From Mucilaginibacter galii (GTDB taxonomy: Bacteria > Bacteroidota > Bacteroidia > Sphingobacteriales > Sphingobacteriaceae): a stretch of 64,000 bases of DNA. Each line of letters starts with the position of its first letter. Within the stretch, counting starts at the first letter, position 1. The stretch lies in NCBI RefSeq assembly GCF_014635825.1, contig NZ_BMDO01000010.1, positions 1-64,000 on the forward strand. The letters run 5' to 3'. Below the pieces are notes generated by a model. The model saw only the letters and a list, made by a program, of their open reading frames with translations. It was not told the origin of the DNA and searched no databases. Of the stretch, positions 1,412 to 38,293 are shown one piece after another. Made by a program: the position numbers and the translations under genes.

Positions 1412-1630
1412 ATGGAAGACTTTGGATTGACCCTGGCCATTAACGGCCAGCAAATAGCATCAACGGTTCACCCTCACATTGAGGGCGAAAGCACATATTA
1501 CGATATTATTACCGACGATTTTACGATTACCATCTACAAAGACACTTTGTACACCTGGACGGCCTTTGTAAATGCTGGTTTCAGCAATGATGAAATTCAA
1601 AGCATCGGCGAGCAGCTGATCGATTATTAA
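1412..1630 (+). CDS. Small conserved-type hypothetical protein (72 aa)
   Basis: Not recognised. A short acidic protein with no signal peptide, membrane segment or Cys motif. It alternates beta-prone stretches (TLAINGQ, YYDIITDD, FTITIYKDT) and ends in a probable helix (NDEIQSIGEQL), suggesting a small cytoplasmic alpha/beta fold. The ATG start, lack of an overlapping competitor and a strong terminator right after the stop argue that it is a real, singly transcribed gene. It diverges from the desaturase across about 110 bp. Confidence 0.7.
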   Translation: MEDFGLTLAINGQQIASTVHPHIEGESTYYDIITDDFTITIYKDTLYTWTAFVNAGFSNDEIQSIGEQLIDY

Positions 1631-1637
1631 ATGCAAA

Positions 1638-1672
1638 AAAGGTCATTCTGAATTTTACAGAATGACCTTTTG
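1638..1672. terminator. Intrinsic terminator, bidirectional
   Basis: Stem AAAGGTCATTCTG pairing with CAGAATGACCTTT, with T's on both exits. It ends the 72-aa gene on the plus strand and the outer-membrane barrel gene on the minus strand. Confidence 0.85.
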
Positions 1673-1689
1673 TTGGCGTTTCAATTGGC

Positions 1690-4503
1690 CTATGGCTCAA
1701 TAAAGCTACCATCTCCCCTCCTGCGCAATTGCCTGCCGTTACGCGATGGCGAACCGGTCCACTTTTGAAGATTGGCACGCACGCTTAACATAAAATAACG
1801 GCTTAACGCATTTGATAAGGTATTGGTAAAACCATTTTCGGTAGTTACCTGGTTTACAAAGTTATTTTGTTTAAGTACATCGAAAACCTGTAAACGTACG
1901 ATTAAGTTACGTTTGGAGAAAAACTCGTTTTCTATATAAGCATTTACCACAAATGGATTGCGGCTTATATTGTTGCTGATACCGGTAATGAAGTTTTTGC
2001 TGGCACTATAACCCACTTGCAAGGTTCTATTCTTCATGAAGAAAAATCTTCCATCAATGGCTAAAGCTGTGGTACGTATATCGGTGTTGGATGCTGGGTT
2101 GGCTTCGAAAAAGTTGCGGGTCACATCGTAAGCAACGTACGGATTCACTTCTATAGACTCGTTAGGATTAATCCTTGGCCCGAAACGCTCGTTCAATCTC
2201 CAGGTATTTCTAAAGTTTTGCACGTTGTTCAGCATGGAAACGGTGCGATTATAACCAACACTTCCAATTAAGGATAAATTATACTTACGATCGGCCAATT
2301 GTTTGGAGATGTTGTAGTTACCATTCACATTGTAACTGCCGTTCAAGTTTACATAACGGGTTTCGTTTTTAAATGCCCCATAAGCATCAGGAATACGCAC
2401 ATTGTTGGTCACAATTTGATTGTTGACTAAAGCCGCCACCACATTGGCAGACAGGTTGAGCCTTGAATTGGAGATGTAGTTATTATACTGCGTGTTAATA
2501 GCATGCCTGAAAGCCGGTTTCAAATCGGGATTACCTACTACCGGGTTTTGCGGGTTTGACACATCGCGCACGGGCTGTATCTGGTTAAAAGACGGTTCGG
2601 ACGGATTACCCTGGTAACTGAGGGTAAACCTTTGCTGCCGCGACCACGCATACTGAAAGCGTGCAATAGGGATTAGGTTAAAATAATTTTGGTCAGTCAT
2701 TATATTTCCCTGACTCACCCGCGTGCCCCGCAAATTGGTTGGCACAGCAGTTAGCCCCAATGAAAAATTATATTTGGTTTTTGTAAGCCGGTAATTTAAC
2801 GCAATGCGGGTTTCGGTAAACGAATAATCGTAAACATTACTTAACGAGTCTATCAAAAACCGCTGCCCGTTGGCTGATATATTGCTGGTGTAAGCCGTGT
2901 TATCGTATCCGCGGTAATTTACCTGCGCATTTAATTCCAGTTGTGATGATAGCGATAACGGCTCCACATAAGTAAAGCTTGTCCGAATGTTTTTGGTCAA
3001 ATTATCACGCTCAATGTAACGATGAACCAGTGAATCTACATTACCGGTAGGTAAATAATATCTGATGGTGTTGTTCTGCTCATTGTCTACCTCCTGGTTT
3101 GAGTTGGTATAGTTGAACTGGAACGACAAGTTACGCCTTGGTTTCTTAAAGATGTGCTGATAAAGAATAAGTCCTCCCCAGTTTGGCGTTTTATTGTAAC
3201 TGTTGTTAGCGCCCAACCTGTCCTGATGCCTTAAACCAGTTTCAAAACGTGATGAGGTATTGGTATTGTCTGACGATGTGAAGTTAATGGTCGGCGTTAT
3301 CTGTAAATAGTTGGCGCTGTCTATCTGGTAATCCAGCTTAAAATCGAGCTTGTGATTGATTCTATTGTTTTGTGAATCGCCATTGTTGGTGAAGAAAATC
3401 GTACTGTCGCCACGATTGGCCGGTATGGTGTTAAAAAACTGCTCGCCATTGCTGTTGGTAATGGCGTGCACTTTGTTAATGCTATAGCCATAACTACCAT
3501 TTACCTGCACCTTCTTACTCAACTGATCGGCGAAGCTTATGGTAGGTGCAATGGTAGTGGTAGTACCACCAGAACCACTGTTGCTGTTGTTATTGTTCCC
3601 TCCCCCGGCCGAACCGCCATTGGTACCTGTAGAAGCTACGCCATTTACGGTATTCCTGAAATCACCAATCACACCTATTTGCTGGTTGCCGTTAATACGC
3701 TGTAAAAATGCCCGGGCCTCATACCTGTCATTGTTACCGGCACCGGCACTTAAGCGTGCAATGTTGCCTACCGATCTATCGGCGCGGGTGGTAATGTTCA
3801 GCACCTTTTCGGGGTCACCGTCCTTAATACCTGTACGGGCGGCCTGATCACCGTAATCATCCACCACCTGAATTTTTTCAACAATATCCGCCGGTAAGTT
3901 TTGAATGGCTTGTGCCAGATTACCGCCCGAATATATCTTGCCGTTCAATTTAGCCCTGGTTACGGCTTGCCCCTGGTGTGTAAGCGAACCATCGGTGCCC
4001 ACTTCCATACCTTCCATTTTCTTCAGCAATTCATCAACCGATGCATTTGGGCGCACTTTATAATCGCTGGCTTTATATTCTACGGTATCAGTTTTATAAG
4101 TGATGCTGGGCGTGCCGTTAACCACCACGGCAGCTAACTGGTTCGACTGGCCGTTTAAGATGATCGGATCCAGCACCAGCCTTGGCACGGCATCGTTGTT
4201 GAGCATTTTTCTCACCACCGGCCTGAAACCTATACTGGTGATACTTAAAACGAAGGTAGCCGATTTTACGTTTTTGAAAACGAAGATACCATCGGCATTG
4301 GTGGTGGTAAGCATGCTATCGGTGCCTGTTTTGAGCTTTACCGTAGCGCCTATGATGGTATTGTCGATACTGTCTTTAATAATACCGCTTACTTCTCTAA
4401 AGGGTAATGGTGGCTTGGCTGCGGCCCCGCTCCTGGCGGGCACCTGGGCATAAACGCCGCACGTGACCGTAATCAAAACGATTAAAAGTATAAGTTTCTT
4501 CAT
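1690..4503 (-). CDS. Outer-membrane beta-barrel protein, TonB-receptor-like with carboxypeptidase-regulatory N-terminus
   Basis: A signal peptide (MKKLILLIVLITVTCGVYAQ) is followed by a CarboxypepD_reg-like beta-sandwich at about residues 38-110 (VSGIIKDSIDNTIIGATVKL). A plug-like domain follows at about 140-245 (SVDELLKKMEGMEV, then NLPADIVEKIQVVDDYG). A long strand-rich barrel fills the rest. A Gly/Asn/Ser-rich low-complexity insert lies near residues 292-315. The layout matches the 'outer membrane beta-barrel family protein' group of Bacteroidota, related to SusC/TonB receptors but without a SusD partner here. It lies 33 bp downstream of a secreted Gly-rich protein on the same strand, so the two are probably co-transcribed. 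The ligand is unknown. Confidence 0.85.
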   Translation of the reverse strand: MKKLILLIVLITVTCGVYAQVPARSGAAAKPPLPFREVSGIIKDSIDNTIIGATVKLKTGTDSMLTTTNADGIFVFKNVKSATFVLSITSIGFRPVVRKMLNNDAVPRLVLDPIILNGQSNQLAAVVVNGTPSITYKTDTVEYKASDYKVRPNASVDELLKKMEGMEVGTDGSLTHQGQAVTRAKLNGKIYSGGNLAQAIQNLPADIVEKIQVVDDYGDQAARTGIKDGDPEKVLNITTRADRSVGNIARLSAGAGNNDRYEARAFLQRINGNQQIGVIGDFRNTVNGVASTGTNGGSAGGGNNNNSNSGSGGTTTTIAPTISFADQLSKKVQVNGSYGYSINKVHAITNSNGEQFFNTIPANRGDSTIFFTNNGDSQNNRINHKLDFKLDYQIDSANYLQITPTINFTSSDNTNTSSRFETGLRHQDRLGANNSYNKTPNWGGLILYQHIFKKPRRNLSFQFNYTNSNQEVDNEQNNTIRYYLPTGNVDSLVHRYIERDNLTKNIRTSFTYVEPLSLSSQLELNAQVNYRGYDNTAYTSNISANGQRFLIDSLSNVYDYSFTETRIALNYRLTKTKYNFSLGLTAVPTNLRGTRVSQGNIMTDQNYFNLIPIARFQYAWSRQQRFTLSYQGNPSEPSFNQIQPVRDVSNPQNPVVGNPDLKPAFRHAINTQYNNYISNSRLNLSANVVAALVNNQIVTNNVRIPDAYGAFKNETRYVNLNGSYNVNGNYNISKQLADRKYNLSLIGSVGYNRTVSMLNNVQNFRNTWRLNERFGPRINPNESIEVNPYVAYDVTRNFFEANPASNTDIRTTALAIDGRFFFMKNRTLQVGYSASKNFITGISNNISRNPFVVNAYIENEFFSKRNLIVRLQVFDVLKQNNFVNQVTTENGFTNTLSNALSRYFMLSVRANLQKWTGSPSRNGRQLRRRGDGSFIEP

Positions 4504-30544: not shown

Positions 30545-31540
30545 CTATTTCTGCATTACCATAACGCCATTCATTAGGAACGTGGTGCCGCCATCGGCTA
30601 CCATATTGTAAACCTTTTGTATGCCACCTGCCTTTTCGGTTTTTTGCAGCACAGTGTAAGCCTCATACTTACCCGTTTTTTCGTTCAGGCATAAAACTTC
30701 CTGTCCTTCGGTCACCTCTCCTATTTTGCAGTTACCTTCTTTGGTCATCATGGGGTGATTGGGCGTGGCTTGCAGCAACTTACCGGTCAGCCTTACTTCC
30801 ATACCGAAGGCCGTATTAATGGTCTTCGCCGATACCAGGGTAAGATGCGTTATAGCATAGTTCTTAGCTTCATGCGTAGTCAACTCTTTAACCTTTACAA
30901 TATTTGATTGATGGGTAGCCGGATCTACAGTAAGTACCTCGTCACCCGCCTTTACTTCCTTTAAAAGCTTTTTGGCTCCGTTAGCCATTTGTACTACCTC
31001 ATTACCCGGGAAGCAGATGTCGTTACCATAAGTAGCACCCTCTTCCTTCATTTCCTTACCTCCATTCAGCACTTTGTACTGCTGAAAGCTCATTTCTTTG
31101 GATAAAATGTAGGATAACTTCAAGATGAAGTTCTTTTCCTCTTTGTTGATGTTATCAATATCCTGAAAATACTTTTCCCATATTTTGCCATCGGCTGTAA
31201 AATCGGGCACCAGGGCTTTGTATACTTTACCTTTTTCGTTGGTATAGAATACCATCAGGCCAATTTCCTGCATGCCTTCTTTAGCAATGAGTTTGTACAG
31301 GTCAATTCGTTTTTTAAGGCCATCATCTCCGGTGATGAAGTAGGGTTTGCGGGCTTCGTAACGGTCAAGGATGTAAATATTTTCAAATTTCACATAGCTA
31401 TCCTTATCCAAATCGGCTATAGCAAAGGTTTTAGCTTTATCATACTCGGCCATGGTAAGTGGACGAGGGTTCACCTTGGTTTGAGCCTGTACTAAATAGA
31501 ATGAAGAGGCCAGTAGAAAAGTAAGTGTAGTTTTACGCAT
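30545..31540 (-). CDS. Secreted Hint-domain protein (autoprocessing fold)
   Basis: A signal peptide (MRKTTLTFLLASSFYLVQAQ) is followed by a 150-residue N-terminal domain of unknown type. A Hint (hedgehog/intein) domain follows from Cys176 (CFPGNEVVQMANGAKKLLKE, then VKAGDEVLT). Block-B-like TPNHPM (259-264) supplies the usual Thr and His. The end is KVYNMVADGGTTFLMNGVMV, the Hint last-strand pattern. The terminal HN pair of splicing inteins is missing and no C-extein follows, so splicing is not expected. N-terminal cleavage at Asp175-Cys176 is possible. Function unknown. Confidence 0.82.
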   Translation of the reverse strand: MRKTTLTFLLASSFYLVQAQTKVNPRPLTMAEYDKAKTFAIADLDKDSYVKFENIYILDRYEARKPYFITGDDGLKKRIDLYKLIAKEGMQEIGLMVFYTNEKGKVYKALVPDFTADGKIWEKYFQDIDNINKEEKNFILKLSYILSKEMSFQQYKVLNGGKEMKEEGATYGNDICFPGNEVVQMANGAKKLLKEVKAGDEVLTVDPATHQSNIVKVKELTTHEAKNYAITHLTLVSAKTINTAFGMEVRLTGKLLQATPNHPMMTKEGNCKIGEVTEGQEVLCLNEKTGKYEAYTVLQKTEKAGGIQKVYNMVADGGTTFLMNGVMVMQK

Positions 31541-34686: not shown

Positions 34687-34720
34687 TACGAAAGTTTCGT
34701 AGATTTACGAAGTTATCGTA
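34687..34720. promoter_or_regulatory. Tandem BlaI-type operators
   Basis: TACGAAAGTTTCGTA (34687-34701) is a perfect 15-bp palindrome around a central G. TACGAAGTTATCGTA (34706-34720) repeats the outer TACGA/TCGTA arms. Centres are 19 bp apart, and the second ends 3 bp before the blaI ATG. Placement and symmetry fit autorepression by a BlaI dimer. Confidence 0.75.
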
Positions 34721-34723
34721 GAA

Positions 34724-35086
34724 ATGGAAAAATTATCACAACAGGAAGAGGATGTCATGCAAGTAGTATGGCAAATGGGCGAAGGTTTTATTAAAGACTT
34801 TTTAGACCAAATGGCAGAGCCTAAGCCCCCCTATACTACCCTTGCTTCTACAATAAAAAACCTGGAACGTAAAGAATTTTTACGGGGGGATAAATTAGGC
34901 AACAGTTACAAGTACTCAGCCTTAATTAAAGAGGAAGATTACAAGAAGCGGTTTATGAACGGCTTTGTAAACAACTACTTTCAAAACTCTTACAAAGAAC
35001 TGGTTACGTTTTTTGCTCAAAACAAAAAAATAAGCACTGATGAATTACAAGAGATCATCAAAATGATTGAAAACCCTAAAAAGTAA
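34724..35086 (+). CDS. BlaI/MecI/CopY-family transcriptional repressor
   Basis: Winged-helix repressor (EEDVMQVVWQMGEGFIKDFL; PYTTLASTIKNLERKEFLRG) with a C-terminal helical dimer region (KRFMNGFVNNYFQNSYKELV) that membrane peptidases of the BlaR1 type trigger to be cut. 120 residues is normal. It is followed after 5 bp by a BlaR1-like gene and preceded by two operators, the classic BlaI-BlaR arrangement. No beta-lactamase gene is nearby, so the regulon is unknown. Confidence 0.92.
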   Translation: MEKLSQQEEDVMQVVWQMGEGFIKDFLDQMAEPKPPYTTLASTIKNLERKEFLRGDKLGNSYKYSALIKEEDYKKRFMNGFVNNYFQNSYKELVTFFAQNKKISTDELQEIIKMIENPKK

Positions 35087-35091
35087 CCGTT

Positions 35092-37038
35092 ATGCCTGCT
35101 ATACTCATGTACCTGTTAAAAGTAAATATAGCCTTGTTGCTGTTCTGCCTTTGCTATTATACGGTTTTAAGGCGCTTAACCTTTTACACGCTTAACCGGG
35201 TGTACCTAATTACGGCTATACTATTCTCGTCGTTATACCCGCTAATTGACTTTACCGCTATAATGCAACGGAACGAAAAATTAGTAGAGCCCATACAGGT
35301 GGCCGTTATAAATTTCAACATACGTGCAGCCAATTTTGCTCAACCTGTTGCCCAAACTAACTATTGGGAATGGCTGGTTATCGTTTTTTGGACAGGTGTT
35401 ATTTTTATGGCTTTGCGATTAGCCCTGCAGTTTATATCGCTGTTGCAAATTTACCGCCGTTCTAAACCCGCTACTATAGACAATTATAAGGTTAGAGTAA
35501 TAAGTGACGAGGCTAACCCTTTTTCTTTTTGGCAAAGCATCTATATAAACCCACACCATCATGGTGCCGAAGAATTGAGCTCTATCATAGCGCATGAACA
35601 GGTACATGTAAGTCAGTGGCACACCTTAGATATTTTACTGGCCGAAATTAGCCTGGTGTTTTACTGGTTTAACCCAGGCGTTTGGCTTATGAAAAAAGCG
35701 GTGGCCGAAAACCTCGAATTTATAACCGACCGCAAAATACTGCAACAGGGTATTGATGCTAAAAGCTATCAGTACAGCTTATTGTATGCCAGCTTTAATA
35801 CATCGCCCAATGCCATGGTAAATCATTTCAATATATCTACCATAAAAAAACGAATTATAATGATGAACTCAAAAAGATCTTCGGCTTATAATTTAAGCCG
35901 CTACGGCCTTATTGCCCCGGCCGTTTTGGCTTTGGTTTTAGTCTTTGGCACCACTAAAGCCGAATTATTAAAAAAAGGAGCTCGCGAAGTAAAAAAGGCA
36001 ACAGAAAAAGCAATTACTGCGGTCAGTTTAACATTGAACCACATCCCGGATAATACGGAGGGATTGGCTTCAGCAGACAAAGTAAAAGACGGTGCAACAA
36101 ATCTTACTGCTGCCGCTGGTAAAAAAAGCAAGATAGACACCACTATTAAATTGGCTGGAATAAGTTTTACAGCCGATACACCTAAATACAAACCTGCCGC
36201 AAAAATGCATTTTACTGGTCCAGACAGCGGATTTTACGTTATTGACGGTAAACCTGTTAACGCCAGCGAAATGACCAATATAAACCCTAATGATATTGTA
36301 AGCATAAACATATTTAGCGAATTAAACTCAAGTAAGATATTTGGTAAAGGCGCCAATAAAGGTGGAGTATTGATCATAACAAAAGCCGGTGAAAACTCAG
36401 AAGTTGTTAAAAGTCTATTAAAGCAAATTAGTGACCTTAAAGGTACTGCCTCTGCTAAAGAGGCCGGCATTTACAATATAACTCCGCCTAAAGGTTCATT
36501 AAATTCTATTACGATAATGAATACCAAGGATAGTTCTAAGTTAGGAGGATCGGTTACGGTAACGGGTAGTGCCAGCTATAGCGAAAATGGCAAAGCAAAT
36601 AAATACGTAGGGCAAGTAAATATAGCGTCTGTTGAATATTCGAAACACTATCCAAAATCATTTATGGACAGCGTGAATGGAAGCAAAAGACCGATTGTTG
36701 CTATTAGCACAAAGCATGGTATTACAGCTAACGATATAACAAGGGATTGGAGCCTTAAACATGACATTACCGCAAAGAATATCTTGGATGAGCAGCCAGG
36801 TATTATAATAAAAGGAATATCGGGTGTTAACGACCCTCTTTACATTATTGATGGAAAACCTGCGGAAGTAACCGTAATCAAAAGCTTAAAAGCATCGGCT
36901 ATTGAACGCATTGATGTTTTAAAAGATGCATCTGCTACCTTAATATACGGCGAAAAAGGAAAAAACGGTGTAGTAATCGTAACCACAAAAGAAGCCGCAA
37001 AGGCAAACTCCTTAAGACCGGCAGGAAGTAAAAATTAA
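35092..37038 (+). CDS. BlaR1-like M56 membrane peptidase with two TonB-plug-like segments
   Basis: The N-terminus has four or so membrane helices (ILMYLLKVNIALLLFCLCYY; LVIVFWTGVIFMALRLALQF). The M56 zinc site HEQVH is at residues 168-172, with a later ENLEFITD acidic ligand. A membrane helix at about 275-292 leads out of the cytoplasm. Instead of the penicillin-binding domain of BlaR1, the external part carries two copies of the SusC/TonB plug signature: YVIDGKPVN...GKGANKGGVLIITK (about 380-431) and YIIDGKPAE...DVLKDASATLIYGEKGKNG (about 583-636). It probably cleaves BlaI on sensing an envelope signal. Ligand unknown. Confidence 0.88.
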   Translation: MPAILMYLLKVNIALLLFCLCYYTVLRRLTFYTLNRVYLITAILFSSLYPLIDFTAIMQRNEKLVEPIQVAVINFNIRAANFAQPVAQTNYWEWLVIVFWTGVIFMALRLALQFISLLQIYRRSKPATIDNYKVRVISDEANPFSFWQSIYINPHHHGAEELSSIIAHEQVHVSQWHTLDILLAEISLVFYWFNPGVWLMKKAVAENLEFITDRKILQQGIDAKSYQYSLLYASFNTSPNAMVNHFNISTIKKRIIMMNSKRSSAYNLSRYGLIAPAVLALVLVFGTTKAELLKKGAREVKKATEKAITAVSLTLNHIPDNTEGLASADKVKDGATNLTAAAGKKSKIDTTIKLAGISFTADTPKYKPAAKMHFTGPDSGFYVIDGKPVNASEMTNINPNDIVSINIFSELNSSKIFGKGANKGGVLIITKAGENSEVVKSLLKQISDLKGTASAKEAGIYNITPPKGSLNSITIMNTKDSSKLGGSVTVTGSASYSENGKANKYVGQVNIASVEYSKHYPKSFMDSVNGSKRPIVAISTKHGITANDITRDWSLKHDITAKNILDEQPGIIIKGISGVNDPLYIIDGKPAEVTVIKSLKASAIERIDVLKDASATLIYGEKGKNGVVIVTTKEAAKANSLRPAGSKN

Positions 37039-38126: not shown

Positions 38127-38163
38127 ATGATATAAAGAACAGCACAGTTGTATTTAAGTTTTG

Positions 38164-38231
<68 letters not shown>

Positions 38232-38293
38232 GTGAAGTTATCGTATCGCTGCTTGTTTCAGCCATTTTGAAACATCGTTTATAGTCTATCGAC

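Follow-up and report, generated by a model that had tools for sequence, protein, structure and literature searches.

A BlaI–M56 pair with a half-plug ectodomain in Mucilaginibacter galii and the GLPGLI operon as a probable target in its relatives

What might a BlaR1-type protease sense when its periplasmic part resembles a piece of an outer-membrane receptor? The question is raised by a blaI–M56 locus of Mucilaginibacter galii, located in a stretch of 64,000 nucleotides of contig NZ_BMDO01000010.1 (hereafter the window). An earlier note on this DNA had described a BlaI repressor, two operators and an M56 peptidase, and all three were confirmed by Pfam matches, intact catalytic motifs and the positions of the operators (Table 1). 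As in the BlaI/BlaR1 and MecI/MecR1 systems of S. aureus (MEROPS M56), a BlaI-type repressor and palindromic operators adjoin the gene of a polytopic M56 protein, which starts 5 bp past the blaI stop. BlaI aligned over its full length with the structures of S. aureus BlaI and MecI (1sd4, 1sd6, 1okr). Two further features of the window were recorded: a Hint-module protein (PF01079, E 2e-8; 30548-31540, strand -), which is unexplained in such a setting, and a short tandem repeat, (GLWTMDY)n, lying in an open frame at about 38130-38260 with two genes flanking it.

Table 1. Features of the blaI–M56 locus, with positions in the window. Domain assignments rest on profile matches and predicted models.
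Feature	Position	Strand	Basis
BlaI operator 1, TACGAAAGTTTCGTA, class A (TACGAN5TCGTA)	34687..34701	.	Pattern match; kept upstream of blaI in relatives
BlaI operator 2, TACGAAGTTATCGTA, class A	34706..34720	.	Start-to-start spacing to operator 1 of 19 bp
blaI, 120-aa BlaI/MecI-type repressor	34724..35086	+	PF03965, E 2.3e-29
M56 sensory protease, BlaR1-type, with half-plug ectodomain, 648 aa	35092..37038	+	PF05569, E 9.6e-12
Membrane and M56 protease part, residues 1-291	35092..35964	+	Predicted helices including 2-29, 32-51, 89-123 and 266-290
Half-plug copy 1, residues 370-434	36199..36393	+	Profile match to copy 2; own model; Foldseek
Variable inter-copy linker, residues 436-568	36397..36795	+	pLDDT <50 at residues 470-568
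Half-plug copy 2, residues 574-640	36811..37011	+	Plug, TIGR04057, SusC/RagA structures

Judged by its motifs and predicted fold, the M56 protein is an intact BlaR1-type membrane protease. The zinc motif HEQVH (residues 168-172) and the motif ENLEFITD (residues 206-213) were retained in all 44 aligned sequences, the window protein among them. In the predicted model, residues 1-252 shared the fold of S. aureus BlaR1 (8exs_A; VIA-align Z 15.7, 223 aligned residues, 3.2 A). The full-length model had a mean pLDDT of 63 and a pTM of 0.39. The NCBIfam BlaR1/MecR1 matches of the window protein fell on the protease part. Unlike BlaR1 and MecR1 of S. aureus, the window protein carries two half-plugs, and neither Pfam nor NCBIfam detected a transpeptidase or penicillin-binding domain in it; such a domain was also absent from the families matched by the 44 aligned sequences. 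A second difference from the S. aureus systems lies in the surroundings and targets. A scan of 10 neighbouring genes (28.9-41.9 kb of the window) found no beta-lactamase, which bears out what had been noted from the letters alone, and the likely targets in relatives are GLPGLI genes.

By sequence and predicted fold, the two periplasmic segments are the C-terminal half of SusC-type plugs. Copy 2 (residues 567-627) matched Plug (PF07715) with an E-value of 7.5e-11, aligning to profile positions 44-107 of 107 only, and the SusC signature TIGR04057 with an E-value of 9.1e-14 (51 bits, cut-off 46.2). It also matched SusC/RagA structures in both phmmer and profile searches, with 44-49% identity to SusC plugs across 63-70 residues. 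Copy 1 was weaker: a second Plug stretch passed an E-value of 5 when the ectodomain was scanned alone. The family profiles of the two copies nevertheless aligned with each other (98.7% probability, E 3e-16). In the full-length model both copies were predicted as strand-strand-helix-strand-helix-strand units, with pLDDT values of about 80 and 90, respectively, and SusC/RagA proteins ranked directly behind BlaR1 in Foldseek. Modelled alone, copy 1 reached a pLDDT of 80, and most of its best Foldseek rows were receptor plugs, at weak E-values of 0.017 and up. Comparison of predicted structures with receptor plugs, proposed beforehand as a check, thus returned plug-like folds by Foldseek and structure alignment. 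Across the 44 aligned sequences, the occupancy was 0.93 for each copy versus 0.48 for the middle stretch; the linkers of the ectodomain were mostly predicted to be disordered and varied between species. The resemblance to SusC/RagA receptors (TIGR04056/TIGR04057, PF07715) is limited to this module. Each copy holds the C-terminal half alone and not the whole profile (1-107), the protein stops 21 residues past the Plug match and has no barrel, TIGR04056 scored 94 bits against a cut-off of 368, and the module sits on an inner-membrane protease. The proposal of the earlier note that two plug copies replace the penicillin-sensing domain therefore stands for the number of copies and the missing penicillin domain, and has to be amended in that each copy is a half and not a whole plug.

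The fusion is not restricted to one genome. A genome search of the family gave matches in 198 of 201 genomes, and many of those from the same genus aligned over long stretches; a survey of M56-plug fusions, also suggested earlier, found the arrangement in many genomes. Neither of the two outcomes named beforehand as refuting the observation, an unrelated fold of the segments or a fusion absent from every other genome, was observed. The named survey comprised 80 loci, chiefly from Mucilaginibacter and Pedobacter; the alignment was made of 44 of the 81 sequences (80 loci plus the window), from which segment sets of 38 and 37 were later drawn. At E 0.01, Plug was matched by 23 of the aligned sequences, TIGR04056 by 22 and TIGR04057 by 20, and the simple motif GV.I.T was present in the tail of 39. 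The fusion recurs across Mucilaginibacter. A shorter tail, from which the SusC loop has been lost, is present in Pedobacter and a second family (the family of G247). Profiles of these shorter tails still aligned with copy 2 (97.5% and 98.3% probability, respectively), versus 1.3% for four TonB_C-like control tails. By profile they are the same module without the SusC loop, so that 'plug-like' describes only one end of a range. As far as the sequences can tell, the constant element across relatives is a small IDGK...TK module.

Several variants of the architecture were observed. One Mucilaginibacter locus (L074:2671-3546) encodes a protein of 291 aa that consists of an ectodomain only, with two stretches resembling half-plugs and no Pfam match; its gene has its own operator pair in front and a blaI–M56 pair just downstream, and a second Mucilaginibacter locus (L073) shows the same operator arrangement. 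We suggest that the L074 protein is either a decoy or the remnant of a tandem copy. Another Mucilaginibacter genome carries tandem M56 genes with half-plug tails (L031:1-1467 and 1501-3264). One aligned relative matched SLBB (E 2.4e-6), a sequence match which hints at further ectodomain swaps.

The operators were used to ask which genes the repressor may control. The exact operator pair with 19-bp spacing was found in 48 of the 80 related loci; 30 had exact sites without a 19-bp pair, and two had no exact site. In Pedobacter, the blaI–M56 pair lies next to a convergent operon in which a GLPGLI-family gene is joined by one for an outer-membrane barrel. The barrel gene begins with CarboxypepD_reg and shows a weak Plug match under the cut-off. 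The GLPGLI protein has a start that resembles that of a secreted protein, and its Pfam entry (PF09697) gives the function as unknown. The 20 Pedobacter loci (185 kb) held 41 exact TACGAN5TCGTA sites against a Markov expectation of 0.05, and a chance occurrence of the motif was rejected. Genome-wide, exact class-A sites were few (0-6 per genome in 19 genomes). Twenty of these sites precede blaI and 20 precede GLPGLI genes (in 17 stretches). The remaining one (L161) lies before a GLPGLI-like gene of 315 aa, with its start 27 bases away; it was counted apart since this gene lacks the literal motif and fails the corresponding filter. The L145 promoter was left out because its GLPGLI frame runs off the end of the stretch, and in one of the 20 loci the stretch read contained no GLPGLI gene. 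Two Pedobacter promoters (L123 and L132) displayed a series of three sites spaced by 19 bp, in which each of the two flanking sites had a single mismatch.

In the Mucilaginibacter genomes examined, the GLPGLI operons are located away from blaI–M56. The promoter sample consisted of stretches from 20 genomes with GLPGLI frames of about 320 aa, plus locus L048 and the window's own genome. Thirteen Mucilaginibacter genomes had a GLPGLI-type gene of this length; its promoter carried a class-A site in six, a class-B site (AACTAN6TAGTT) in 10 and at least one of the two classes in 12. Exact class-A sites that stood beside a class-B site lay 19 bp from it. None of 14 'GLPGVI' paralogue frames had an exact operator site. 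Of 20 loci in the family of G247, 16 have a GLPGLI gene beside blaI–M56: directly after M56 in 13, after small ORFs in one and before blaI in two, with none in the other four. Within the stretches read, no GLPGLI gene was found near the paralogous M56 genes without half-plug tail of this family (0 of nine loci). The compared genomes are related, and the locus counts are therefore not independent events. Taken together, the sequences indicate that the usual targets of BlaI in the half-plug M56 relatives are probably blaI–M56 itself and the GLPGLI/barrel operon.

The genome of the window differs in its wiring. Exact class-A sites occurred three times in 4.86 Mb: the two operators of the blaI promoter and a third within a 608-residue open frame. 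The exact sites of the window BlaI are thus its own promoter plus one in a coding frame only. The GLPGLI gene of this genome (L224:4500-5480; TIGR01200, E 1.2e-48, 165.9 bits, cut-off 50) is preceded by two class-B sites, and class A was absent there even when one mismatch was tolerated. Since the GLPGLI operon carries the other operator class, the exact-site regulon of the window pair is its own operon. A shorter GLPGLI-like gene of this genome (L140, about 260 aa) was likewise free of class-A sites when up to one mismatch was allowed. A large class-A regulon was unsupported, as one-mismatch sites numbered 98 versus 215 for the reversed control pattern, with no enrichment. The genome encodes four BlaI–M56 pairs with three operator classes. 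The paralogous blaI on contig C3 has class B upstream (two exact and three one-mismatch sites), the one on C12 has a single class-B site with a mismatch, and the pair on C11 has the operator AACTGN6CAGTT. The M56 protein of the C12 pair (L003:1072-2775) carries a TonB C-terminal domain (PF03544, E 2.5e-14); by eye, a half-plug-like stretch was seen beyond it. The ectodomain of the C11 M56 protein (L001:1039-2340) is weakly LptA/LptD_N-like, at an E-value of 0.17 and below the cut-off.

From these data we consider it rather probable that the pair forms a BlaR1-type circuit which does not sense beta-lactams and most likely monitors some feature of a GLPGLI/barrel system, because the usual targets in relatives include GLPGLI and barrel genes. 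By analogy with S. aureus BlaI/BlaR1, a periplasmic event at the half-plugs would trigger the signal and the last helix would transmit it to the cytoplasmic protease. As in that precedent, the activated M56 protein would cleave BlaI, and cleavage would derepress the targets. The monitored feature could be the GLPGLI protein, a free plug, cargo or the assembly state. Candidate ligands of the half-plugs are the GLPGLI protein, free plugs and an assembly factor, with TonB the least supported. A relationship of the half-plugs with the plug of the target barrel itself was not supported: profile comparison of the sensor half-plugs with that region of the putative barrel gave an hhalign probability of 0.2-0.3. 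A broader and clearly more tentative proposal, taken as a whole, is that of a widespread Bacteroidota signalling family, with half-plug, TonB_C and other ectodomains and operators at steps of about 19-20 bp. In this family the half-plug would act as a periplasmic mimic, the state of the GLPGLI/barrel system would be sensed through an unassembled plug, the GLPGLI protein or cargo, and paralogous pairs would converge on one operon.

Three other explanations deserve consideration. The half-plugs may serve as decoys to a protein that normally binds unassembled plugs, be it a chaperone, the GLPGLI protein or an assembly factor, so that the protease would fire when plugs build up in the periplasm, as a Bacteroidota counterpart of DegS/sigma-E. 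A periplasmic sensor with plug fold agrees with such a role, as does a target operon made of a barrel and a protein with secreted-like start on which the operator classes of paralogous BlaI proteins converge. This envelope-assembly sensor, with its hypothetical binding partner, is nevertheless rather unlikely, as the plug regions of sensor and target were unmatched by profile. Slightly less probable still is a docking of TonB or of a SusC-type receptor on the half-plugs, by which BlaI would be informed of transport activity. The closeness of copy 2 to SusC plugs speaks for it, together with the TonB C-terminal domain on the M56 paralogue of the same genome and on M56 proteins in another family (one by Pfam, several by eye). 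In receptors, the N-terminal half of the plug comes after the TonB box. This half is missing in the M56 protein, which leaves TonB contact unsupported, and the loss of the SusC loop in Pedobacter and the second family, where the tail persists, speaks against a surface conserved for the docking of TonB or SusC. It had been supposed in the earlier note that the sensor reports on receptor or TonB state rather than on beta-lactam; the link to an outer-membrane system is strengthened by the GLPGLI operators of relatives and the neighbourhood in the second family, while contact with TonB is unsupported.

Finally, BlaI and M56 parts of the BlaR1 kind would be expected if the protein sensed beta-lactams or the cell wall in the ordinary way and the half-plugs were an unrelated decoration. 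We regard this reading as highly improbable and rejected beta-lactam sensing, given that the sensor domain is absent by Pfam and NCBIfam; the lack of a beta-lactamase in the neighbourhood and the GLPGLI genes as targets in relatives point the same way.

The GLPGLI/barrel-monitoring circuit that we favour has partial parallels in known systems. Like the Bacteroidota M56 proteins with TonB_C (L003 and L221 by Pfam; L216, L219 and L222 by eye), it combines a BlaI–M56 pair with an ectodomain module known from the TonB/receptor machinery, here a half-plug and not TonB_C. Cell-surface signalling, as outlined in a review (PMC7593790), consists of an outer-membrane receptor, an anti-sigma factor and an ECF sigma factor. 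It likewise brings matters of an outer-membrane receptor to transcription via an inner-membrane protein and regulated proteolysis; there the signalling domain is on the receptor and the anti-sigma factor is cut, whereas here the protease of the repressor bears the plug-like domain. In other studies, BlaI and an M56 gene of P. gingivalis appear in tables on hemin methylation (PMC10470040), and GLPGLI appears in expression tables and brief remarks (PMC9603813, PMC8757827); the M56 hits in a further paper (PMC12578637) proved to be catalogue numbers. Within the open-licence literature searched, no publication was found to deal with M56-plug fusions or to connect BlaI with GLPGLI. What is new here, from sequence comparison, is the GLPGLI operon as a probable target of half-plug BlaI–M56 pairs in relatives.

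Research on BlaR1-type proteases has dealt with them as antibiotic sensors. In the present locus this chassis carries part of an outer-membrane receptor, and in relatives it is probably wired to GLPGLI genes. GLPGLI proteins would thereby gain a regulatory context, and the Bacteroidota a candidate route for envelope sensing. With operators, repressor, protease and target all defined, the circuit is directly testable.
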